Of a stretch of 64,000 nt of DNA, positions 1,925 through 49,423 are shown in pieces; positions within the stretch are counted from its first letter, which is position 1, and each line of letters starts with the position of its first letter. Source of the stretch: Pezizomycotina sp. ARF18 (taxonomy: Eukaryota; Ascomycota); assembly GCA_002224055.1 (NCBI GenBank), contig AZLU01000124.1:1-64000 (forward strand), read 5' to 3'. The notes beneath the pieces are model-generated. The model ran no database searches and had not been told where the DNA came from. It was given only the letters and a program-made list of their open reading frames with translations. The position numbers and the translations under genes were made by a program.

Positions 1925-3077
1925 ATGGCTAACAATTGCTATTGCTCCTACTGGCTATCTTACTCGCTGTCTTCGCTCTCTTCAAGAAGCGTCTTACCAC
2001 TCCAGGGTTACCTATCACCGTTTAACTATGGCAGGAAACAGATCGTTCCGGTTTCTGTGAACTATCACTTCACCCGCAAATGCAATTATTGAATTGTGGC
2101 TTTTGCTTCCACACGGCAAAACATCTAATATTGTACGCTCGACGACGCAAACATGCACTCCTCCTTCTCCAAATGCCGGTATGAAAAATAACTCGCTGGC
2201 GGTGAACCCTTCCTCTACGCCAAATATCTTGGAGAACTAGTGACATTCTGCAAAGAACGCCTCCACTGGACTCTGTCTCAATCGTGAGTAACGGCTGCCA
2301 AGATCCGCGAGGATTGGATCCGAAAGTATGGCCGCATTTGGATATCCTCGCCATATCTTGTGTTCCTTCGACGAAGGAGTCAACCGTCACATCGGCGCGC
2401 GAACTGGAACGAATCGCAGCGAGCACTTGGGCAAAGTTAAACAAATCCACACTGTGTTGCAAGATATAGCATCAAGTTAAAATCAACACCGTCGTCAACA
2501 AGTACAATTTCGAGAATATGAACGCTGAGATTCAAACCCTTGCCCCCTTCCGGTGGAAATGCTTCCAGGTTTTGTCGTGGAAGGGAGAATGACTCCAAAG
2601 ATACGCTACCGATGCGACGAGTTTTTGATCACGGACGAGAGTTCAACACGTTCCGTACTAAACACGAGCACAATGCCTGTTTCGTACCGAAGCGAACAAT
2701 CTGATGAAAAATTCTTACTTGATCGTTAGATGAGAACTTTGTGCTTTTTGAACCACAGCGGCGAGAGAAACGACGAACACCAACCGATCACCGAGGTCGG
2801 AGTTCAACGCGCTTTTGGAGATGCAGGCTGGATGAACACAGTCGTGAAAAGAGGCGGGGTATATGACTGGACCAACAAGAAGGAAGCAACAGATGGGGGT
2901 TGGTTGTCCCTGACTGGTGGGGTGGTGACGGGAAAGTCCAGCACTAATCCTATTGAGTGTAGCCATAGCGTTTCCATCGTACACAAATTTTATCCCCACG
3001 TTCTTTCTCTATTTACTTTGGCAATCAATGTAAATATGTTCGAGACAATGTCTCATCGCTGTGAAACAAGGCATTAG
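1925..3077 (+). CDS. Viperin-like radical SAM enzyme (RSAD2 family)
   Basis: Family blocks appear in the right order across three frames. First comes an N-terminal hydrophobic helix (LLLLAILLAVFALFKKRL) like the membrane anchor of viperins. Next is PVSVNYHFTRKCNY followed by CGFCFHTAK, giving the CxxxCxxC iron-sulfur triad with Cys codons at 2081, 2095 and 2104. Then follow AGGEPFLYAKYLGEL (the GGEP motif), SIVSNG, LDILAISC (about 2340), FDEGVNRHIG, FKINTVVNKYNFE, FRWKCFQVL, MKNSYLIV, EVGVQRAFGDAGW and KRGGVYDW (about 2855-2870). Viperins convert CTP or other NTPs to 3'-deoxy-3',4'-didehydro nucleotides; animal viperin is interferon-induced and antiviral, and fungal members exist. The coding is intronless but broken by several 1-2 base length changes, so the exact C-terminus is unclear; the final open frame runs to 3077. 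No nucleotide kinase partner lies next to it. Confidence 0.9.
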
Positions 3078-3790: not shown

Positions 3791-5116
3791 ATGACCACTG
3801 CCGTTCAGAAACCTTGTTCCTGTTGTGAGGCCTCGAGTGAGGACATATATCCCTTGCAAGAGATAATGATGAGGCAAGAAGGTAGACATTGCCTCCCTTT
3901 CTTCTTAATTCTATGCTCCTCTCCATTCCTTTTCTTCTTCCGCTTTCTCTCCTAGTTTTCAGAAAAAGCTTTATTGCCGCCTAATTTATAACTCTCGGTT
4001 TTCTAGACTCAACGAACAGCATAATGCCCTATTACATTTCACACGCGGAGAGCTACTCCATCCAGAGATAGTCGATCAGTTGCGGAGGATGTCGGCGATG
4101 AGAAGCGACTGCTTTTGATGCAGATATAGCAACTGGAACAGCGTCAGCTCCCTTCCCCACCTTCTAGGCCTTCGATCCTTCGCGGGTTCCTATTCCCACT
4201 GACCTCTCACTAAACAAATCTGGCCGAGACACTTGCTCGAAGCGTTGCGACCGAAAATATCACAGCAAGATTCACGGCTTCGACATCACGCGTGCGTTAT
4301 TCCCGTCCGCAAAAACACTTCCTGGCAACATCCATCTGCACGTCAAGAGTATTCTAGAGCCACCCGAGGATCGCTGGAAGGGAAAGTTCGACTATGTCCA
4401 CGTTCGCTTGCTCATCGGCGCGCTGAAGGCGGAAGATGGAGGCCTGCTATTCAGAACTGCGCGGAGATGCTAAGTGCGCATTCATCGTCTTCATTTTAGT
4501 GTCTCCGCTGACAACTTTTTAGAACCTGGAGGAATTCTCGCTGGGAAGAGATGAACATGGGCGCAGTGGTATCCGACCCGTACAACGAAGCGATAGAAGA
4601 GATTGTCGTTATACACGGATATTCTTCAAGAAAGCGGAAGAAATCACCTGTATGAATCCATGTGGTCCAGCTACTCATTCCATCAGGTCCCCTATGCTGA
4701 CATATCTTTAGTCCGTGCAACCGGTTTCCCGCCCACTTCGAGTCCGCAGGCCTGAAATTAACGCCGGAATCGCCGTACACATACGACGTTAGGGTCGTCG
4801 ATAAATCCGTGCGCGACGTGTTCACCGGAGGCTCTATCTCAGCCCTTAAAAGGATCGCCGAACAAGGGGCCGTACTACTCGATGAGGATACAGGGTACAA
4901 GTCAGCGGAACAAGTACTCGCCATGGGTGCCCGGCGGAAGAAGCGTTTGCCAAGGGTGGTGTGCAGATCACTTGGCCCTTGCATAGGTTCGTGGGGCAAA
5001 AAGTAACTACCAAAGATGCGACGAGGCTCGCCTTTATCCAGAACAACAACAAGGCTGCCTTGGGCAAAGAAAATGTTTCAGGCTCTAAGCTGGCGAAAAT
5101 AACAGCTATCGTGTAA
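3791..5116 (+). CDS. SAM-dependent methyltransferase, LaeA/UMTA-like
   Basis: The N-terminus MTTAVQKPCSCCEASSEDIY and RLNEQHNALLHF are typical of a large fungal family of class I methyltransferases. A degenerate motif I (ADIATGTAS, about 4112) is followed by GFDITRALFP, LPGNIHLHVKSILEPPE, FDYVHVRLLIGALKAEDW, an NCAEML..PGGILA block (motif III/post-III region) and EMNMGAVVSDPYNEAIEE. After an apparent intron at about 4652-4702 (GTATGA..TTTAG) come AGLKLTPESPYTYDVRV and KGGVQITWPLHRFVGQK. An intron of roughly 125 bp is also likely near 3883-4007. Such enzymes methylate small molecules or, like LaeA, act as regulators of secondary metabolism; the substrate cannot be told. Several frame changes occur, as in the neighbours. 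It sits between the viperin-like gene and a rhodopsin-domain gene, and a shared pathway is only a guess. Confidence 0.85.
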
Positions 5117-5528: not shown

Positions 5529-6413
5529 ATGGCTAATCCCGGAGTTCCGTGGCAGGCAATAGAATGGATATTCATCCCAGTAACTTTTATCTTCCTTGTC
5601 TTAAGGATATACATTCGAGTCCATGTCCCGGGTGGAATCTTTCATCGGAATTCGTGGGCCTAGAGCGATTCATTCGTCGCGGTAGCGTGTTTAGCTTCGT
5701 CTCAGGATGTATCGACCGCTGGATCACGGATCGCAACTGGTATAACCAGGATCCCTCGATGTCCATGTTCGTCGCGCGATACGTAGTGTTCTTGGCTCGC
5801 GCGCTGTTCTACTGGCTATGCATGTACTCCATCAAGGCTTCGATGGTCAGCTTTTGTTTCGAGATTATTCCGAGGGACGTGATGCCCAAGAGGCGGCGGT
5901 TGTTGAACGTGATTGTGTGCGTTTCTGTCTTTGCAGGAGCGGTTACGACGGTGTGTTCGATATTGTTCTCTTGTCATCCGATCTCGAGATTCTGGTAACG
6001 TATTCCCTCCAACTACCTAAAGCATCTTTCCTATATGCTCGCTAATTCCTTTCTTTCTTCCAGCAGGAACGTCGCTGGCAGCGAATGGTATTATTATCGC
6101 CTTAGATACCGGCAGCCGGGTAAATGACCGTGTGTCTGACCTTCGCAGGGTATCCGTTTGCATCGCGCAAGGATATGGTATAATAGCCGCATGCCTTCTA
6201 GGCTTTGAGGGATTTGTTTGCAAGGTGCTAGCTATTTCAGCGTGATTGAATTCGAGACTTAGAGGCCGCCAACATAGCAGCAAAGACAGCCAAACTATCT
6301 CCGCATCCAACATATCTAGAACCACTACTGAGTCAGATATTGCCGAAGCTTTAGTCGTGGTGGCCGGTTTCAAGGATCAAGAGGGCAGAGTGGATTGGCA
6401 ACGATGTTTGTAG
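5529..6413 (+). CDS. Fungal rhodopsin-domain integral membrane protein
   Basis: The start gives MANPGVPWQAIEWIFIPVTF and a first membrane helix ending in LRIYIRV, the usual opening of fungal 'rhodopsin domain-containing' proteins (related to the 7-TM part of PTH11-like receptors). It continues with SDSFVAVACLA, then RALFYWLCMYSIKASMV, the helix LLNVIVCVSVFAGAVTTVC, and the diagnostic CHPISRFW at about 5972-5995. A GT..AG intron likely runs from about 5995 to 6062. After it come NGIIIALDT, a helix in GYGIIAACLLGF, and a hydrophilic tail with TESDIAEALVV ending at about 6413. At least two small length changes break the frame. The ligand and role are unknown. This gene and the next one converge, tail to tail, and belong to the same superfamily but are clearly different in sequence. 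Confidence 0.75.
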
Positions 6414-6755: not shown

Positions 6756-7964
6756 TCACCCAAATTTTTTCTCCCGTTTCGGTTGCTTATTAAAATCACT
6801 ACTACGGGGCGCAATCTCCGACAGGAGCGCTTTCCTCATCGCGAGATCGAGAAAGCCGCGATCCGTGGTGACTATCTGCTTTGACTGTAGCCTCCGCCCG
6901 TTTTTTAAGCTACCGTAGTAATCGAGCTCAAAGATACCGTCGTCAAATGTTCCCTTTCTCACGTTCTCATCTTCCTCGCTAAAAAGCTTAGATGAGCGGG
7001 TTGCCCCTCGATGACCTCCTGCGAAGACGTCCCACCTGCGCTTCCCGGTAGACCGCTCCACCACGCCACCATCCGTTTCCTGAAAGAATTCAAACTAGCT
7101 CTCATCGCTATCAAGCTCGTTACGATAATACAAAATATCATCTCCACGTATCCCCAGGTGAGGATCAACAGCAGGTCCCTGTTCTTGAACATAACAGATT
7201 GTGCTCGCAACGATTGTAAGTCCGGACAGCGCGAACATGGCGAACGCAGTCATCTTTTCGCTACGACTGAGCCCCACCCGCCGCAGTAACGGCACCGCGA
7301 GCGCGATAAAGAAAATGTCCGAAACGAGCGAGACAACGTAGTGCCCGTTGAGCATGTAAAAGTTACACACCGTGCACTTGACCTGTTTCGCAACCCGATC
7401 AGGCGCCATCGACGTGTCCCAATCGGCCTTCTCACCTTCGAAGACGCAGCAGAAAATTTCCACAGGACGAGTCCGATAGCGGAAAGGACGAGGAAAACCA
7501 AGTTTGCGAGGGCGTACCACCACAACCGCCCGGGAACGTCGCGCAGGAGATTCCAATACAACATCCCAGCGAGACCTTACACATTGCCATAGCCGCGATG
7601 CTAAAGGGCCTGCAACGAAGACGAATTTAAGTATCAACTCTTCGACCGAGCCGTAGTGTTCCGGTAAGCCGTGGCCGTAGCCAAGGTGAAATACCCAACC
7701 TGCAAGGCCGACGAGACCGACGGTAATCAGCCATGAAAATAGGAGGACGTAGTCGTCGCTCCGGAGGCCTCTGGCAAAGCCTGTACACATTCTGGCGTAT
7801 ATATGGAGAGCAACCGCGGCAGCTGCAAGGACAAAGGCCAAGTAGTAAACTACCTGCATGCCGCTACCAGACTTGTTCCGAAATTCGTAAGTTACCATAG
7901 CCTTCCATTCTTCAGTACTGTTCTTGTAGTTTCCTGCCGGAGCTGGCACTAATCTTCGTTCCAT
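6756..7964 (-). CDS. Fungal rhodopsin-domain integral membrane protein
   Basis: From the ATG at 7964 (MERRLVPAPAGN) the protein begins with an extracellular N-terminus. Helix 1 is YYLAFVLAAAAVALHIYARM, then RSDDYVLLFSWLITVG, the next helix, and a glycine-rich loop HLGYGHGLPEHYG, all usual for the family. In other frames follow IAAMAMCKVSLG, MLYWNLLRDVP, YALANLVFLVLSAIGLVL, then HYVVSLVSDIFFIALAVPLL and MTAFAMFALSGLTIVAS. The seventh helix is LTWGYVEMIFCIIVTSLI, and a charged cytosolic tail runs to the stop near 6756. At least four small length changes fall between 7400 and 7620 and near 7150. The domain order and length (about 400 residues) are normal once frames are ignored. The signal it senses, if any, is unknown. 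Confidence 0.8.
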
Positions 7965-8903
7965 TTTCTGCCCGGCTATCGGTGCAACAGATATTCTGAG
8001 AAGCGAAAAAGCGATAAGTAAGGTTTCACTATCGATAATACTTCGACGACGCAAATTCCTAGATCCTCAGCTCTCATCCAAAATAACAAGTGAAAATTGC
8101 CAACCGTAGTCCAGTTCCGATACCCGCTGCGATTCGCCCGAGCTTTGAATTCGTAGCGGTAACCTGAGGAAATCGCGTGAGATATGGATGAAGAGAGACG
8201 TAGTGAAAATCGAGCGCGGGCAATACTTATTAAAAGGAATCGAGAGAAATATTTGAAGGATGCAGAGGAGCCTTTTATTTGCACACCTGGTATAAGAAAT
8301 GTATGCAATGCCATATGGCAATCTTGTCCCGCGCAGACATCTTCGATGTGATCCTGCCACTGAAACCTTAATTATCTTCCCTTACTATGTATCAGCTCGA
8401 GGGCGAGGGCGTAACCGGCAAAGCTTGCGGACTCTAGCCTATTTTTGGGGGCGAGAAACCCGGTATTCGTCAAGCCATCCATCCACAGTCTGGAGGCCCA
8501 TGGAGCGCCACCTCTCGCTATGATTGGCGGCTACCCAGCCAAGCGGGCCTGATAGGCTGATACCCTTCTCTTTACCGTGAGTGGGCCAACGCTAACCGAA
8601 AGCGTCAAGGCACCAGGAGCAAGACTTACGATACTAAGCTTGGATGACAGGTTTAAGTCGTCGTTGTTCAAAGGGTTCAGGTCTAGATTCACTTCATCCG
8701 AATATTAACTCGATTCTCATATATAATGCCGTTCTCGAAAGAACGTACAAAAGTACACCGTCGACTAAGAGCCCTCAATAAATATCTAAATAGGGGCTTA
8801 AGGGTTTGGGCAACACTTCCGAAGTATATAGTATGCCTCGAATATTATATGAAACCTTACTTGCATAGACTCTCAATTCAATATTCCTCCGCCTTCGTTA
8901 GAC
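7965..8903. other. Intergenic, nothing recognised
   Basis: This region lies between the start of the rhodopsin-domain gene (transcribed leftwards) and the 3' end of the IgE-binding-like gene. Open frames at 7976-8360 (minus) and 8299-8523 (plus) overlap each other and show no motif. The part next to 7964 should hold a promoter, but I see no clear TATA element. Confidence 0.4.
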
Positions 8904-9540: not shown

Positions 9541-9574
9541 TCTGGGGAACCGTAAATAAATGCTATAAAGAGTA

Positions 9575-9652
9575 CAGGTGGTGACCAACGTATAGTACAC
9601 AAACTTTAACTCTAAGTTAGGATATCGTCAGAACCCCTAAAATTCTTAAAAT
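9575..9652 (+). repeat. Left terminal inverted repeat of the DNA transposon
   Basis: About 78 bases match, in reverse complement, the stretch at 14471-14548 with only a few differences. It starts CAGGTGGTGACCAACG and is preceded by the dinucleotide TA. Confidence 0.9.
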
Positions 9653-10123
9653 TATAATAAAATAATAGCCTACCATTATATAATTAACAAATAATTAAAT
9701 ATATTATTTTTTATTATATAAAGCCCTAAAATTTAATATTTTATAGAGTATCTACATTAATAAATAATAGCTATTAACCGACTTTATATCGACCTAATAA
9801 AAGAATTAAAGTCTTTAGCTTTAAGCTTATCTTATAGCTACTACACCTAGCTCCTAAGCTTCTCTTTACTAGTCGCCTTACGCGGTAATATATTAAGACG
9901 TTTTTTATTAAGGCCTAGACGTTTTCTATATAGTTTAAATTAGGTAAGCAAACGGGGTAGTTTTACTATTTTATACTAAAATTAGCCCTTAATTTTACTA
10001 GCTTTTTTTATTATAAACCGCTATATTATTTTTAATGATAAACTAATTTTAATTAGAGTAGTAACGCTTTAATTTATAATAAACTTTTTAAGCTACCCCT
10101 TAAAATTTCTTACTTATAGATAA

Positions 10124-10325
10124 TGTAAGGGACTTGCTAAAGACTCGGTTAGAGTCGGTAGGCCTCTTACTAATAATATAGGGATCATTAGGTAAAAGGT
10201 ATATATTAAGTATTACTTAGAATAACTAGTAGTAAACTAGTAATAATTAGACTATAGTATTAATATACTATTAGATTAGTAACCTTAGTAGTATATATTA
10301 TACCGAGCCTACCCGATATCTAATA
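10124..10325. repeat. Left long terminal repeat
   Basis: Direct repeat partner of 13448-13639. It contains the shared blocks AGACTCGGTTAGAGTCGG-like, TATTACTTAGAATAA and CCGAGCCTACCCGAT-like. It is preceded by GATAA. Confidence 0.85.
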
Positions 10326-13300
10326 TCCTCTCCCCTAGAATCTATAATTCTATATATATACGGTATTCTAAAGGAACTACCTATAATCCTATACGTACGT
10401 AGTATTTTAAAGCGAAATACTAATAAGTAAAATAAAAATTAAAAAAAAAATAAATCTACGTATAAAGGAAATTTTTTATATGCGAAACGTCTTATAATAG
10501 CTTAAGTAGTATATCTTAGAATATATTAGCGTTATTATATTAAAATAGAGGTAGCTAATTCTTTATCTAGGAATACTTTATTTATCTAATATATAATATA
10601 CCTATAAACTTACTATTACTACTTTTTTCTAGCGCGGTAGTACGTACTTTAATAAGGGATATTATTTAATATACTTTATTAATTAACTTTATAGAAAGAC
10701 GTTTTATAACGCGTTATAACGCGTTTTATAGAGTTCTTATAGAGAAGGCGTTTAGCTTAACGGGTAGCGATTTATATTATATTGTACCGCGCTCTATAGA
10801 GTTTTTTACCGGAAGGCGTTTTTTATATTTCTATTTTAGGAGCGTATATATATATAGTTATAAGCTATAGCTATTTACTTAGGAGATATTAAGCTAAGAC
10901 ATAATATTATAATATAGTAATATTTTTTAATATTATAGAGTCTTATTTAAAGTAGAAAAAAATTTTTTATAAAACTCCTTTTCCTTCTCTTTTTTAAGAA
11001 GGTTCTCTTTCTTCTATATACGATATATCTTATACTAGTTTACCTCTTCCTTTAAATTAACCTTTAGCTTTAGTTTTTAGAGTTCCCTAAAAAAAATTTC
11101 CTATATTTTTTTTTTTTTTAAACTGCTATGCTTCCGCTTTTTCTAGTAATATAGCGACCTTTTATAACTATATTATTAATTTTATTAAGACGGCTATTAT
11201 TAGTACTAATAGCCTTTTCTAGTATTAATATAAAGTTTATATTACTATTGGTTATGTTTATTATTATAATAGTAACGCTAAGTATACTCGCTATACCGCG
11301 CGTTAATATAATTATACTTAGAATAGCGTTAACTATATCGCTATAATTCTTTAGGCTAAGCCCTAGCTTACCGATAATAATTCTCTAATATAGTAGTCTA
11401 TACTAATAATACGCGTCTTATCCGGCGTTATAGTAACGCGCCCTCTTTATAACTATAGTTATTTTAAGGTAGTTTTATAGCCCGCCGGTATTACTTTAGG
11501 TAAAGTTTAGATCCTTACCGCGTAGGCGTATACCGGTAGCTACGCGAACCACGTCTAGGCGCTAGAAACTACCTCCGCTATCTATACCGTATTAATCGTC
11601 GCTTTTAATATTTTTCTCGCTACTACTCCTAACGCTATAGTCTTTAATACCCTCGCTACCGACGTTATATAGCTCTAATAAGCTATTACTAGGATTAACT
11701 CCTATAATTATATTACGCCTCCTATCGCCTATCCTCTATATACCGCGTATATCTTTGCCGCCGGCTATACCGGACTTTATAATAATCCTTTACTTTTTTT
11801 ACCGGCCTAGTGCCCGTAGTACGCTACGTATATACTTAGCGCTAGCTACGCTAGCGCCTATAATAATTCTACGCCTCCTACCTACGCGTAGGCGTAATAT
11901 AACCTCGTTATAGAATATAATAGCGTATATCTTAACGCGAATAGCCGCGAGAGGTATAGTTATAGGTACTAAAAGGTAATCTATTATAGAAGGTATTTTT
12001 AAAATAAATAAATATTACGTAGTTATCTAAGGGAAGAGGAGAATAAGTATAGCGAGGTAGCTTATATTAATTCGCGTTTCTATATTTTTTTTTATATAGT
12101 CAGGATATCTAACGGTTAAAAAAAGATATATATAGTTTTAGAAAAGACTAAACTTATCTATTATTTTAAGCTCGCGTAATTACTTCTTTTTTTATAACGC
12201 GTTCCGCGTTAACTAGCCTAACTAGCGAAATAATATTTTATAAGCTCTATTATATATTTTTCTCTTCTACTATTAAGTTCTAAACTTATTATAAAATAAT
12301 AATGACTTATTTTAAAGCGAGGAGCTTTAAAACGCGCTAACCTATATTATATTAATTTATTAACTATTAGGTTTTATACTTATAACGATTTTTTTATTTT
12401 TTAAGCTATTAACTCCGCGACCGGTATCGCTACGTATTTACGTTAAAGAGACTTAAATTACCGCGGCTAGCTACCTAGAGTATAATAATAAAGAGGTAGC
12501 TTATCTTTTTTTTAATTTCTTAGTTAAGACGCTATAATAGGACGCCGACTATTACTTTAAATTATTTAGCGTAGAATAGATCTATTTATCTAGTATACCT
12601 ACTTTTAATTTATCTTTTATATAAACTAGTTTTTTATAATCGTTATAGACTACTAAATTATATATTCTTATACTATACCGACCTATCTTAAGGCAATTTA
12701 GTAATAACGATATCTCTTAGTTATATAAGAGTAGCGTATTCTCGCTAAAATTACTTTAATAGATTATTTCTTTTAGTTATTAATAACACCTTTATTATTA
12801 TCGTCGCGTATCGCCTATCTTTAGATAGACGCGATAAACCGAGGAATTTTAGTTCGATCTATCGGTTTATATATACGCGTAATTTCTACTCTAAATTTAC
12901 GCGATATACCTTATATCCGCTCGATATACTTTTTTCTATTATAATCGACTATATAGTATTATACCCCTTCTTATAAGGTAATATATATTAATACTATTAA
13001 TAAGGTTTAGGACTACTTACCGCGTACCCTAAATAAGTCTCTTTTTCCCTCTATCCCCTAACTAGATTACTAATTAACTAGTATAGTACTATACTTCTTT
13101 TTTATTAGATATAGGAATCTACGTTTTAGCGAGGAGGTATATATTAATAGTAGTACTATCGATAGGGTTTTTAGGGGTAATAATTATCTTAGTTAACTTA
13201 TTAGCTTATACCTAATTAAGTCTCTTTATCTTCTTTATTCTCTAAATTTTTATTAATTAAATTATAGATAGATCGACCGTTCTCGTTCTTATAACGAAGC

Positions 13301-13447
13301 TAAAAAAAAAATTTATACCGTTATAATATAATAAGGCTCGTATTAACTCGAGAAACGTTACTTTTTCTAAGTATCGGTCGGACCTTAATTAGTTTCACTA
13401 TAATATAACTATCTAATAGCTAACGAATTATAAATAACTAGTTATAA

Positions 13448-13639
13448 TATAAGGGACTTACTAAGGACTCGGTTAAAGTCGGTAGGCCTTTTACTAATAA
13501 TATAGGGTAAAAGGTATATATTAAGTATTACTTAGAATAATTAGTAGTAAACTAGTAATAGTTAGGCTATAGTGTTAATACTATTAGGGTTAGCAACCCT
13601 AGTAGTACGTGCCGTGCCGAGCCTGCCCGATGCCTAATA
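13448..13639. repeat. Right long terminal repeat
   Basis: Direct repeat partner of 10124-10325. Its right half is less TA-rich (GTACGTGCCGTGCCGAGCC) than the left copy, so the two repeats have been hit unevenly by C-to-T type change. It is followed by GATAA. Confidence 0.85.
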
Positions 13640-14470
13640 GATAACGCTTATAATTTTACCTTTAAAAAAGATAACTAACTTACTTTTATTATTAATTATA
13701 ATCCTACCCTATATTATTAAACTAAAGCGGCTACTTCTAAAAGTAGTAAATATATTTCTAGCTTATAGGCTATCCCTAGATAATACTAGATACGGCGTAC
13801 TTTATTACTTAAAGTAGAATAAAATAAAGCTTTATTAATATAAATTCCGTTATTAAAGTCTATATTTTTATTATTTTAAGTATATTAATTCTTTTATTAT
13901 GGTAATTTTACTTAGTAAAGACGCTATAACGAGCTCAATATTAAGAGATTTCTATTTTACGAAGTTCTTATTAAATTATTAATTTAGACGTATAAGATTA
14001 GGTAGGATCTTAATTATTAAAATAAGTAATTTCGTTAAGAGTAATAAAGCGATATTAAAGAGCGATAGCGCGGAGTTAAGTCCGGCTTACTTAAGTTAAG
14101 AATTATATTACTCCGGTACGACCTAATTAAAGGTTAATTAGTTCTTTAAAAATTATAGATAGATCTAATAGAGGTACGTTCTTAAAATAAAATAAAGGGA
14201 ACTAGATAACTAGTACGCGATAAAGCTTATATAGAGGCTCTCTTATAAGTAGTATAATATTATCTTTAATATTAGCCTACTATATCGATTAGGAGAAAGT
14301 ATCTAAGAAGCTAAGTCGAGCTTTATATTAAAGACTAAAGCTATCGATATTACGAATTTAATATATTTTATTTTTATATTATTTTTAAATCGTAATATTA
14401 ACAATAAAGGGACGTATTATATTTTAAAATATTATATTTAATTATTTATATTAATATCTATTATTTACTA

Positions 14471-14548
14471 TATTTTAAGAATTTTAGGGGTTCTAACGAT
14501 ATCCTAACTTAGAGTTAAAGTTATGTACTATACGTTGGTCACCACCTG
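14471..14548 (-). repeat. Right terminal inverted repeat of the DNA transposon
   Basis: Reverse-complement partner of 9575-9652. It ends CGTTGGTCACCACCTG and is followed by TA at 14549-14550. Confidence 0.9.
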
Positions 14549-14550
14549 TA

Positions 14551-15230
14551 CCTAGCGAATACGAACTCTTTTGTGCTTTATACCCATGCTTCGATTGAAA
14601 AACGTAAGATGAGCTCATTAGAGGGGTTCGTGCGACGGATCACACATCCTATCAAGAATTGAATGGCCTTCGCCGTCTTCAATTTCCGAGAGTCTAGAAA
14701 AGGGTTACGATAACTATATATCGCTTGTACTCCAAGCAAGCCCAATAACTAGCTCAATCGATAGATCTAACAAAGAGTTTCGTACTCGAGACAACTTAGC
14801 TATCAAACAAACATTTCGAGATTGCAGGTTGCGATTACGGCAGCGAGATGGAGTCGTATCGGGAAATTTTTTTTTTACGCGTCGCTGATCGGGTCAAGCC
14901 GACGGCTCCAAACGGTTAGCGTGCTTCTTCGAGTATAATCTCAGAGGGCGGTGCGGTCGGCTACGGGTACGGCATCCAATATTTCTGAATTATAATATAA
15001 TAGACTCTCATATCAAACAACTCGTCGTTTGATCTACTCTCTCCTGACACATATTCGTTCTTCGTCTCGATACATATCACCAAGAGACACGTTGAGGAAA
15101 ATGAAAACCAACGCCCCCAGACCTATATTCATGTATTTAAGCGCTCTCAAGTGCCCCACCGGACCTCCGTGGACGGTTTCTGGTTTTGTTTCCCAGTTCC
15201 GAAATCGGTATTTTTGCTTATCTGCTCGTA
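14551..15230. other. Displaced upstream region of the IgE-binding-like gene, otherwise unassigned
   Basis: Before the transposon arrived, this sequence was joined directly to the 5' side of the leftward gene now starting at 9540, so it should contain that gene's original promoter. No gene is recognised. Composition returns abruptly to normal at 14550, which marks the boundary of RIP damage. The right end may carry the promoter and first codons of the next gene. Confidence 0.45.
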
Positions 15231-36697: not shown

Positions 36698-37555
36698 TTA
36701 CGTACTGCCAGATACCGTATAGTCACTATAAACGCTCTGCGGTAGCAGCTTCGCAACCGCAGCAGCAGCCCCATCCGAATCCGCCTCGTACGTATGATGC
36801 GGCGCCAATATAAAATCGCTATGCGCACATATAGCATCCCAGTATGGCAATCCGTAATCACCCTCGCCGAATCAATAACGGGAAAAGCAGTCCCATTATT
36901 CGGATCTCCGAACAGCATGACCGCCGCGACCTGATTCCACGCCTGCTGCGTCTGCGGTATGTATTTCTCCGCCGCCAGGTGCATGATCTGCGCGCCCTGG
37001 GAGAACCCGCTGAGAACAATAGCCGTACTGGGACAATTTTGTTGGCGAACGCCAGCGTCGCCTTTATGTTTCCCGCGCCGGTCGCGCTTCCGCCTTGTAG
37101 GAATTCCTTGACAGTGGCGGGGTAGTTGTTAACGCCTTGGACGGCGATGTTTCCGCTCCTACGATGTTACCCAGCGATTGCAAGAAGCAGGGTCCTACGT
37201 CATTGCCCACGTTTCCGTCGTTGGAGGTGCCCCGGGCGTAGATGACCGTGACGGGTTTACACGTGCTCCCTGGATTTGTCAGCTCATTCCTGATTAGCAG
37301 CGGCGATCCGTCTGGGAGGTTGGGACAGTTCGGGTTTGCTGAAGCGTTGCGGTCCTTATTGCCGTCGCTTGTAAACGAGGAGATGATGCGAGTTTTGGTG
37401 GCGGATTTCAGGTCTTGCCGTACGGTCGGGTCTGTAAGTGAGCCCAAGACGCCGAGTACCGTGCTCGTTATTAACCCCGGCGTAGGAAAAAGAGCTGGAG
37501 CAGCGCAGACGGTCGTCGACAATGAGAGAAGGAGGGATATGGGTAGGAGATGCAT
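36698..37555 (-). CDS. Secreted cutinase-like serine esterase (CE5)
   Basis: The start at 37555 gives a signal peptide (MHLLPISLLLSLSTTVCA). The cutinase fold follows in pieces: CKPVTVIYARGTSNDGNVG and GPCFLQSLGNIVG, then NYPATVKEFLQGG, then the nucleophile elbow GFSQGAQIMHLAAEKY (Ser near 36995), then AAVMLFGDPNNGTAFP, GDAICAHSDFI (catalytic Asp) and HHTYEADSDGAAA (catalytic His), ending at 36698. The cysteines of the usual two disulfides are present. Cutinases and acetylxylan esterases of this family hydrolyse ester bonds in plant cutin or xylan outside the cell. An N-terminal insert of about 70 residues before the first conserved block makes it longer than a classical cutinase. Three frame changes are apparent, but every catalytic residue is in place. 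Confidence 0.88.
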
Positions 37556-40500
37556 GGTGGGTATTTGCTAGAAAAGTAAAAGTTAGGGATGGTACTAAAA
37601 TTCCGTGTGATATCGAAGCGAAGTGTCGATGGGAATATATATCAATGAAAACTAAGAAAAGCCTCAGTATCCGGTACTAAACAAACTCTTTGTCATATAC
37701 ATCGGTAAGCAGAATACGACTGCTAAGATCTAAATTTGAATAACACGATAACATGACACCAGACGAAACAACACGAGGAATTGAGGGGGACGGTCGATCC
37801 GAGTGCGGGGTGTTGGGATCATTCTCATCAAGAGAACGCTATCGATCTGGCGTCTAGTGAGCGATAGGGAAATACGGTTCGGGAAAATGCAAAGAACTTG
37901 GGAAGTTTGAATGTTATATATCGACATGTCCTTAGGCGAACTCCAAGAGTTTCCCCACATTATGCAGCAATCCTTCACGAAAGGAGCTTTTACTAATGAA
38001 CAGTCCTAGAGATCTTGGAACGTCTTGGACAATACATATTATTGTTTCTGCTTACTTTACGTGAAAAGAGGCAAGGAGTTGTTATAATTAGGTATCAAGG
38101 TACATTCAAAGGCTTGCATTGACGATGCGCGGTTATGAGGCGTCTCAGGTATGTAGATCAATCGCTTACCATCGCTGCCAAAAATGTCTCGAAACGTTTC
38201 GCGGAGCTCGTGATTCGGATCCGGGTTTCTGGAAGAGAAACGTTCACGGGTACCTGGCACCTGCTAGATCTTATGTGGATCGTCCCTGGCAACATGCAGG
38301 AACCAATGACCTTTCCATCACGTCGAAGAGGAATATGTGTTCTAACGCCCCTCGAAGAGAAAGAAACCTTATGGTATCGTAGTCAGAATATTGGAAGATC
38401 TAACTCCGACAAGATTCTACAACATTGGTCAGTGTATCTTGAGGACATGTATTTCCTATGTTCAGTTTATCCTTGGCCTTCGAAGGCATCCCCAAGAAAG
38501 CGAGCGCCATGCCATCGTGGTCGGATTTAAAATTACCAAGTAATTTCTCTGAGACTAGTTTTATGGTACTCGTTTTGTTGACTTGGCCTGCCTGATGAAG
38601 CCTGATTTCATAATACGAGGCCCAAATTTCTCATTTGCGCCGCATTAGAGCCAGTCTGGGATATTCCCTTATCTAATTTCTATATCTCAGGTCTTCTCAT
38701 TGGGTTTTCCGCTCCCAGCGAGTGAATCGAGGCTTCGAAGTCTTAGGATAAAATGATCAATAGCGCGGGTTTGCTAGAAAATCTGGAACGATGAAATCAG
38801 ATGCCAATAACGCATCATAGAGAAATCTGCGTGGGAGGAGTGCGGAACTTTCCTGGACTCCCGATCGCGTCCAAAACTTCTCCTCTGACCTCATTACAAC
38901 CACATCCATCCAGCCGCTCTGTAAAAATGTCAAGGATCGGGCCGGTAACTGGCTTCAAGTCTGCTCTAGAGCGGGCTCATGGCAAATCGGAAAGAAGAGC
39001 CGTCAGTGGAACGTTACATACGCCAATAATCTACGATTCACGAGCGAAACTCGGACAATCGCGATTGGGAACGCGACCCAATCTACCAATCTAGCTAGAT
39101 AATATTCCCAACGCGGAGAAACAAACGCCAAGTATATTCTCTCTCTCAATTTTATAAATTGGATATAAATCAGGCACGGCCGTGTATTACTCTGATATGT
39201 AGTTAAAAATAGATGATTGACTCGATTTTGTTAGAGATGTTTGACGCTAGCTTAGAGCAATCTTTCTAATTATCCTTCGCCTAACATGGCGTAAGGCATC
39301 GCTGTATGCGAGACACTAGAACCGTGGGACCGCCGGTGGACCGCCGGTGGCAGACAAGCGATCTCGTATAAGAAATCCAACACTTATGTTACCCCGTGAA
39401 ATAAAGATAGCGTAAGAGATAGATGGGTAAATAGAGACCGGGAGGTAACTGCTATCGCAGCTCCTCTCATTTGTCCTGTTATGATCATATCCGATCTTAT
39501 AGGCCAGCTCTTAGATATGTATTATCCATATATGCAAAATTGGCAACTTGAACAGTTGAACAGCCATTTAGACAGTAGCTTTCTTTACGTATCGCTTATA
39601 GCTGGCTAAATTCACGCTCCGATTATGTATAACCGAATATAAATAGCTATAAGGGCCTCTCCGTCCCAAACCTAGAACCAAGGTTAGACGGGGTTTCAGC
39701 CCTGCGATTCCCCGCGCCGCACCCCGCCGTCGCTACGGTTAACGACTGCTCCGTGACATAAGCCACTCCGTTTATAACTACTAGCAAGAGGCTTGCTACA
39801 TACGTTGATCTCTTATGTTTTGTTTTTACATGAGTTTCGTTCTTTTTGTATTTTTTTTTTTTCTTTTTCTCTCGTTCGCTCGTTTTCCCTTGTAATTTTT
39901 TTTTTCCCCTCTGAAAGAGCTGTTGATATAATAACTACCGATCCTGAAACTTTCCAAGAGCGTGACTGGCGCACGAAGATGGCTTCGGAACAGGACACCG
40001 CGGGACTGGCTGTTGTCCGACCTTGTCGCAAAACCTCTCGTGATTTTATGTACCAAGTGGCTCAAAAGTCTGAGGAGAGGCGGGGCTCACTTCGCTCTGG
40101 ATGTACACTTCCCCTGGTATCGTCCAAGGTAAAGTCTTCCAGAGGTGTATATGGGGTTTTTTTTTTTCATGATCTCTCGCATGAATTGAAACGGGTCTTG
40201 TAGGTTCCGGTTGAAGCCTAAGGCTTCATGTTGCACGTCATACCGTAAAGATTCCAGTCCTTGAGCCGGCGAGGTCTTTCTAGCTAAGTTAATGATGACT
40301 ACAAAGAGAAGCAGGGTAGGTCGAGAATCCGGAACCTTAAATTAGATATATAAAGAAATTAACCGGCCTTCAGTCATCAACAATCAAGAGTCAGAACCAT
40401 ATCTCTAGAACCTAGCAATACTGAACAACACTCAGGATCTAGCTTTCCATACCACGGCTCTACCGCAAATTGCACCTCTTGCATTGTTGAGTTCCTCACC

Positions 40501-47768: not shown

Positions 47769-49423
47769 ATGAAGGCGGCCACAGTTGCCCTCGCTCTGTC
47801 GCTCGCGTCGAACGCGGCGGCCGTCCCATTCACCAAGCCTAAGATCGGCACCACCCAGGTCATCAGGGTCCCCGCCCTCCGCAACCCCAACGCTGTCCGC
47901 AACGGCCCCGCTGCCTCAGGAAGGCTTACGTCAAGTACGGCCTGTCCGTCCCGAGCTTCCTCGAGGACATCCATCTCAAGAAGCGCCAGGCCACTGTCGG
48001 CGCCTCCCCGCAGACCGATGAGTCGGAGTGGCTGTGCCCCGTAACCGTTGGAAAGACTGAGATGCACCTGGACTTCGACACCGGTAGCGCTGATCTGTAA
48101 GTAATATCAATTTGAAGGCTAGAACAGTTTGATAGTGGGTTACACGAATACTAATATGGTGGTTGTTTAGGTGGGTCTTCTCTGATGAGCTCTCGAACGT
48201 CGGCTCCCACGCTTCCTACCCATGCAAGGCTCGTGCTGGTGGTGGCGGCGGTCCCAGCCCTCCATCCAGCGGCGGTGGCCTGCAGTGCATCATCGGCTGC
48301 GTTGCCTCCGCGAAGGACTTCGAGTCTGGCCTTGAGTGCGTCATCGGCTGTTTCGCTGGTGGCCTCGGAGGTGGCATTCCGGGAATCAGCGGTGGCGACG
48401 GCGGTGATGACGGCGATGACGGTGAAGATGATGGAAACATCAGCGACCCCTTCAGCGACATCCAGCAGGTCAAGCACCTCTCCCAGTCCAAGAAGGACAT
48501 GCTCAGCAAGATCCTTAAGGTTACCGGCGTGAGCACCAAGAGCCTCAAGACTCTAGCCAATGACCCGCCCAAGGCTCCTCCGACAACAGGTTCGCCGGTT
48601 ACACCTGGAGCATCCAGTACGGTGATCAAAGCTCCGCTAGCGGCAACGTTGTTAACGATACCGTCACCGTTGGCGGTGTCTCCTCCCCGACCACGCCGTC
48701 GAGTGCGCCAACAAGGCCTCTGCTGAGTTCATCCAATCCCCCAATGACGGTCTCCTCGGTCTCTCCTTCGGTGCGATCAGCACGGTCATGAACGGCAAGA
48801 CCAAGGCACCTCAGCCCACGTGGTTCGAGGACGCCGTTGCCAAGAAGGTTATCCCCAAGGGTGTCTTCGTTGCCGATCTCAAGCACAAGGAGAAGGGTCT
48901 TACCTCTTCGGCGGCCTCCCCAAAGGAATTCAAGAAGAGGCCGTCACCTGGGTCCCCATCCAGTCCGAGACCGGCTTCTGGCAGTACACCTCAAACGGCG
49001 GTATCAACGTCAATGGCAAGAACTACCTCGACCAAGCCAAGAACGGCGCCATCGCCGACACCGGTACCACCCTCCTCCTCATGGGCAACTCCTCCGCTGC
49101 TGGATACTACTCCCATGTTACAGGTGCCGTCGATGACAAAACCGAGGGAGGTTGGGTCTTCCTTGCACCGCCAAGCTCCCGACCTTGAGGTCAGCATCGG
49201 CGACAAGTGGGTTAAGATCCCCGGAAACCTGATCAACTTCGCTGAGACCAAGCCCGGATCCGGCAAGTGCTTCGGCGGTCTCCAGAGTCTGGAGGACGAG
49301 CTCGGCTGGCAGGCGGCTACGATCCCTTATATCATGGGTGACATCATGCTCAAGGCTATCCAGGCTATCTTCGACAAGGACAACTTGAGGTTCGGATGGG
49401 TCGCGAAGGAGGTGAAGGCTTGA
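47769..49423 (+). CDS. Secreted aspartic protease (aspergillopepsin-like) with a large insertion
   Basis: The signal is [18 protein letters not shown], followed by a propeptide with [11 protein letters not shown] and a KR processing site. The mature enzyme shows [17 protein letters not shown], split by a 74-bp intron (48097-48170), then [20 protein letters not shown] (flap Tyr), [67 protein letters not shown] (second Asp at 49057), [20 protein letters not shown] and [13 protein letters not shown], ending VAKEVKA at 49423. Both catalytic aspartates are intact, so it is an active A1 peptidase by inspection. Between the first active-site loop and the flap is an insert of about 100 extra residues (48210-48590). 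It is Gly/Asp-rich with two similar cysteine units (LQCIIGCVA and LECVIGCFA). Frame changes near 47925, 48690 and 48900 resemble those elsewhere in the window. It lies between two pseudo-protease paralogues. Confidence 0.9.

Follow-up and report, generated by a model that had tools for sequence, protein, structure and literature searches.

In animals, the gene for viperin (RSAD2) has CMPK2 as its neighbour. The N-terminus of animal viperins forms an amphipathic helix (PMC9279394). Viperin has been reported as an ancient and widely inherited immune enzyme of eukaryotes, and fungal viperins have been described and reported to form a clade with those of animals (PMC10732462). The structure of a fungal viperin has also been solved (PDB 6b4c; PMC8124187), in line with the first-pass annotation of the DNA studied here, which had stated that fungal homologues exist. 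Table 1 of PMC8124187, together with the chain names, identifies 6b4c as the viperin of Trichoderma virens and 5vsl as that of mouse, and the viperin of Thielavia terrestris (TtRSAD2) is also one of a filamentous fungus (PMC8124187). The substrates reported for fungal viperins include UTP and, in vitro, UDP-glucose (PMC8124187; PMC5850085, the latter naming only a fungal orthologue).

The window, i.e., the whole stretch of DNA that was analysed, is the initial 64 kb of the 120,583-base contig C124 in the assembly of Pezizomycotina sp. ARF18, which consists of 46.4 Mb in 408 contigs. Viperin was found once in this genome, with one match by model and one by DNA search, and neither search identified a second copy or an overlapping contig. 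A viperin gene had been annotated as a single span from 1925 to 3077, but no one open frame covers these positions. Position 3077 is merely the stop of the last frame, the viperin alignment ends near 2894, and the ATG at 1925 is in a frame different from that of the hydrophobic stretch at 1933–2022. The locus was read in three frames, and its 10 stop-free pieces were searched individually against models. The viperin motifs listed in the first-pass annotation were present on the + strand and in family order, distributed across the stop-free pieces as follows.

1933–2022, + strand: N-terminal hydrophobic stretch, a possible membrane anchor (stop-free piece, hydropathy)
2054–2089 (in piece 1850–2089), + strand: start of the core to the first cluster cysteine, FTRKCNY (TIGR04278, E = 4e-5, profile positions 53–71; start of the alignment)
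2095–2181 (in piece 2026–2181), + strand: second and third cluster cysteines, CGFCFHTAK (TIGR04278, E = 0.0083, profile positions 72–99)
2192–2284, + strand: AGGEP (SAM-binding) segment, LAGGEPFLYAKYLGELVTFCKE (TIGR04278, E = 0.00023, profile positions 109–134)
2206–2466, + strand: DSVSIVSNG ... LDILAISC segment (TIGR04278, E = 0.0082, profile positions 135–179; five PDB chains listed, weak, E = 0.23 to 0.65)
2470–2589, + strand: KINTVVNKYNFE ... FRWKCFQVL segment, which also holds KINTVVNKYNFENMNAEIQTLAPFRWKCFQVL (NF038283, E = 3.8e-10; TIGR04278, E = 1e-8, profile positions 204–242; nine PDB chains listed, best E = 1e-9)
2662–2730, + strand: NNLMKNSYLIV segment with the conserved SYL tyrosine (stop-free piece, motif kept)
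2730–2894 (in piece 2730–3074, which reads VKRGGVYDW), + strand: C-terminal part, FLNHSG ... VGVQRAFGDAGW ... KRGGVYDW (TIGR04278, E = 0.011, profile positions 294–341; best PDB match E = 4.2e-6; end of the alignment)

The model for the antiviral radical SAM protein viperin, TIGR04278, was matched by 6 of the 10 pieces, which advance in order along its 347-position profile from 53 to 341. The E-values of these matches ranged from 1e-8 to 0.011; they were mostly weak singly, and each was far below the model cut-off. The other four pieces matched no model in this search, and none of the 10 pieces matched a Pfam model. In the whole-genome search, NF038283 matched the locus, whose frames are broken, with an E-value of 6.5e-19 and 72.2 bits, under its cut-off of 180 bits. 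For three pieces, PDB searches listed 5, 9, and 8 chains, respectively. Every one of these was a viperin (RSAD2), a viperin-like enzyme or one of 9dfn, 9dfu, 9dfw, and 9dgw. These four are named only 'radical SAM core domain-containing protein' and match an archaeal viperin with E-values of at most 2.4e-38.

The broken frame was bridged with a custom aligner that allows a change of frame at a penalty (10, 14, or 18), with 6b4c (281 residues), 9dfu (270 residues) and two prokaryotic viperins as references. Residues 1–281 of the 281 residues of 6b4c were aligned over 2054–2894 of the + strand, of which 278 were matched. The identity was 0.51 at penalty 10 and 0.49 at penalties 14 and 18. The score of this alignment was 538, compared with maxima of 49 among 40 dinucleotide shuffles and 41 among 40 other segments of the window. 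Similarly, residues 1–270 of the 270 residues of 9dfu were aligned, with an identity of 0.54. The aligned core contains no introns, as 841 bases correspond to the 281 residues of 6b4c. Given that the full-length alignment with 6b4c lies far above both null sets, the predicted membership of the locus in the viperin (RSAD2) family is secure. The matches of the TIGR04278 pieces, the PDB lists and the full-length alignment all agree with the first-pass annotation in pointing to a viperin homologue in a filamentous fungus. A gene of another radical SAM family, such as one similar to PFL activases or peptide maturases, that shares only GGEP and the cysteine motifs with viperin is hardly conceivable. 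The non-viperin models matched were those of HxsC, Rv1681, and PFLA, all weakly (E = 0.058 to 0.09) and by the 31-residue piece with GGEP. However, whenever a piece matched any model, a viperin model was its sole or best match; viperin chains filled the PDB lists and the full-length alignment was far above chance.

Similar to the viperin of T. virens, the ARF18 locus encodes a whole radical SAM core with CxxxCxxC, GGEP, KxNTVV, FRWKCFQVL, SYL and RGGxYDW, at the identity of 0.51 given above. Different from 6b4c, the exact N-terminus and the C-terminal tail of the ARF18 viperin are poorly resolved, with the frame broken in the assembly. Mouse 5vsl (RSAD2), of the same family, matched the pieces at 2470–2589 and 2730–3074 with E-values of 2.9e-6 and 0.013, respectively. 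Chain 6b4c outscored 5vsl in both of these lists, which are the PDB lists containing both chains, and 9dfu and 9dfn scored under 5vsl in the list for the C-terminal piece. The core was also alignable with the archaeal viperin of Methanomethylovorans (identity of 0.38 over 213 residues) and the cyanobacterial viperin of Nostoc (0.40 over 265 residues). Judged by pairwise identities (0.51 to 6b4c and 0.54 to 9dfu versus 0.38 and 0.40) and bit scores, the gene probably belongs to the fungal type of viperin. Algae have been reported to have acquired viperins horizontally from bacteria (PMC10732462), and the ARF18 gene could in principle also be newly acquired from bacteria instead of being a vertically inherited fungal form. 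This origin is very improbable, as the identity to the fungal 6b4c exceeds those to the archaeal and cyanobacterial viperins. The gene adds one more filamentous fungus to the known carriers of viperin and fits the reported view of viperin as an ancient eukaryotic immune enzyme (PMC10732462).

The motifs kept at the locus were the cluster cysteines, AGGEP, KINTVV, FRWKCFQVL, the SYL tyrosine and RGGVYDW. All three cysteines of CxxxCxxC, in the context FTRKCNYxCGFCFHT, were readable, although spread over two frames, and the residue preceding AGGEP was unread. Of the annotated FKINTVV, the KINTVV part was present; its F was not literal, as the frame gives VKINTVV. The position of the IGRG motif reads IGAR. 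The SYL tyrosine is presumably the catalytic tyrosine of viperin; a literature search on the viperin catalytic tyrosine returned no match. At the N-terminal side, the annotated hydrophobic helix corresponds to the stretch at 1933–2022, which is indeed present, albeit not in the frame of the ATG at 1925. A 16-residue run within it, picked by eye, had a mean Kyte-Doolittle value of 3.37 and preceded a KKR. Over 19 residues, the highest value in the stretch was 2.24, which was unexceptional within the 64-kb window. The stretch is a possible membrane anchor. Different from the amphipathic N-terminus of animal viperins, it looks purely hydrophobic.

With 6b4c and 9dfu as references, the viperin region contained 18–19 frame changes at penalty 10, 13 at penalty 14 and 11–13 at penalty 18. 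The same aligner placed 0 and 1 changes in two intact prokaryotic viperin genes at penalty 10 and none in either at penalties 14 and 18. The aligner scores one- and two-base shifts only, so that the sizes it gives are in part assumed; longer changes would appear as codon gaps, of which the 6b4c and 9dfu alignments contained five to eight of 1–4 codons each. As controls, frame changes were counted in ten conserved genes from this assembly by alignment to E. coli reference proteins. At penalty 10, the frame changes per kb in members of the HSP70 family were 8.0 (C70), 4.7 (C49), 5.8 (C303), 4.1 (C208), 11.7 (C3), and 5.3 (C44), while those in the other controls were 8.4 for HSP60, 7.6 for enolase, 17.9 for SAM synthetase, and 3.2 for the alpha subunit of ATP synthase. 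All ten control genes were broken, with a pooled count at penalty 10 of 108 changes in 14,494 coding bases, or 7.5 per kb. At penalty 14, the pool contained 85 changes in 14,227 coding bases. Most changes were scored as lost bases, both in the controls (89 of 108) and in viperin (15 of 19 at penalty 10).

The HSP70 relatives on C208 and C44 were retained in the pool although their identities were low (0.35 and 0.28, respectively). Of the DnaK reference, only residues 1–510 were used, and GroEL was shortened to 520 residues in one count. A chaperonin-family locus on C139 (L032) was not pooled, as it was only 28% identical to GroEL; it had 1 change in 1.6 kb, which speaks against a uniformly error-rich assembly. 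The pool also omits an HSP70-family match on C10 and six further chaperonin-family loci; among the eight chaperonin-family loci, seven had a stop in at least one matched piece. No second locus was reported for HSP60, enolase, SAM synthetase or ATP synthase alpha by the search, which scores the best candidates only. In addition, the PDB match of a cutinase in the window was too short to serve as a reference, and an aspartic protease was also not counted.

All ten conserved genes appear broken, and an organism could not live in this state. Thus, the assembly itself must carry many small length errors, as would be expected of an unpolished consensus. Given that the same frame defect occurred in 10 of 10 controls, the broken frame was not counted against membership in the viperin family. 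The viperin gene is probably intact in the organism, with its broken frame being an artefact of the error-rich assembly.

It seems rather unlikely that viperin was instead recently inactivated and is in early decay, with the enzyme lost in the lineage and assembly errors added on top. Such decay would agree with the density of frame changes in viperin, which exceeded that of all ten controls. At penalty 10, viperin had 22.6 changes per kb and the next gene, SAM synthetase, had 17.9; at penalty 14, the values were 15.5 and, for HSP70 on C3 as the next gene, 10.4. The viperin density was about three times the pooled control rate. The bias toward lost bases, however, matched that of the mostly essential genes in the same assembly. 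At penalty 10, no nonsense codon was found with any of the four references. One nonsense codon was found in 5 of the 12 viperin-region alignments (5 of 8 at the higher penalties), i.e., those with 9dfu and P0001 at penalties 14 and 18 and with P0002 at 18, which speaks for inactivation. In the 6b4c alignment at penalty 10, 59 of 66 readable invariant residues were kept, compared with 23 of 95 at variable positions, where invariance was defined from the four references. Seven readable invariant residues differ, including part of IGRG, a motif that possibly lies between two frame changes; these residues and the poorly resolved ends of the protein would be compatible with decay. Against decay, no signature of RIP was found at 1925–3077, although a nearby AT-rich island has a strong one, and so many neutral length changes would be expected to come with many more substitutions. 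An initial suspicion of a pseudogene, raised by a by-eye count of about 17 changes in viperin versus 3–4 per kb in HSP70, was weakened when one method was applied to ten controls. That the gene is really and recently broken, a natural fungal knock-out of an enzyme dispensable in this lineage, is quite unlikely; if it were true, mycovirus pressure might for instance be low or other defences might suffice. As a warning, a broken frame in this assembly is no evidence of a pseudogene.

The position of genes relative to contig ends was also compared. On 20 other contigs, the coverage by stop-free frames of at least 100 residues was 0.57 in the first 2-kb bin and 0.47 in the second, versus 0.62 to 0.68 in the next three (9–14 bins per distance, with bins of less than 44% G+C left out), which hints at a mild effect of contig ends on frame integrity. 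Two genes near contig ends, however, were not worse than inner ones: the HSP70 gene at 4.5–6.7 kb of C303 had 5.8 changes per kb and the enolase gene at 5.3–7.4 kb of C54 had 7.6. Therefore, the position of viperin near the contig end is not claimed as the cause of its excess.

If the ARF18 viperin functions like other members of its family, its [4Fe-4S] cluster would cleave SAM to generate a 5'-deoxyadenosyl radical. This radical would act on CTP, perhaps UTP as in the reported fungal homologues, to form a 3'-deoxy-3',4'-didehydro nucleotide (ddhCTP in the case of CTP), which in turn would stop viral RNA synthesis. The protein may be held at a membrane by its N-terminal hydrophobic stretch. 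By analogy, the ARF18 viperin may have a role against mycoviruses, and a fungus with a single viperin gene is a possible test case for such a role. Among the literature matches listed for viperin with fungi, mycovirus or Trichoderma virens, none reported a tested antiviral role of viperin in fungi; a paper on the yeast L-A virus contained the word viperin once, in its reference list. No phage record matched a 40-residue piece of the ARF18 viperin.

All 128 stop-free frames of at least 100 residues in the window were scanned with Pfam. As stated in the first-pass annotation, no nucleotide kinase was linked to the viperin gene: none was identified in these 128 frames, although broken frames could hide a weak match. 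In the genome search, matches to Thymidylate_kin were on C155 and those to ADK on C75 and C54, with none on C124. In this respect, the locus differs from animal viperin genes with their CMPK2 neighbour, as no kinase was found nearby. It also differs from the viperin genes on plasmids of Anabaena and Nostoc, which have a deoxynucleoside kinase gene directly upstream. At two loci, these cyanobacterial plasmid viperins (L010, 1420–2833; L011, 1412–2914) are directly downstream of the deoxynucleoside kinase gene, with transposase genes nearby. Downstream of the ARF18 viperin, the following features were identified.

4168–4470: possible methyltransferase, downstream of viperin (E = 0.047, below the cut-off)
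5537–5995, + strand: piece with a fungal rhodopsin domain (E = 2.7e-5, below the cut-off)
7098–8066, - strand: piece with a fungal rhodopsin domain (E = 5.6e-9, above the cut-off)

For 103 frames scanned together, the families listed were cutinase, ankyrin repeats, aspartyl protease, DUF3431, and SH3_3, and two further scans added only three weak matches, below the cut-off. Scans of the 64-kb window for tRNA and Rfam families gave no match. At 37067–37567 (- strand), the window matches a chain of carbohydrate esterase family 5 (cutinase type). At 48656–49420 (+ strand), one frame matches fungal aspartic proteases over two stretches that are separated by an unmatched part. The region 762–896 could encode the beginning of a small secreted protein (MQSLFTIFSLIAFATASPPPP...), after which the frame is lost. 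Finally, an AT-rich island with a G+C content of 0.28 at 9572–14551 is bounded by inverted repeats, whose arms (9572–9602/14521–14551 and 9602–9652/14472–14522) are 97–98% complementary. Its RIP signature is strong, with a TpA/ApT ratio of 1.62 and a ratio of CpA+TpG over ApC+GpT of 0.10. The island is probably a DNA transposon mutated by RIP. Within it, two families of direct repeats (64 and 75 nt; 92–95% identical) are found at 10120–10265 and 13444–13580, about 3.3 kb apart.
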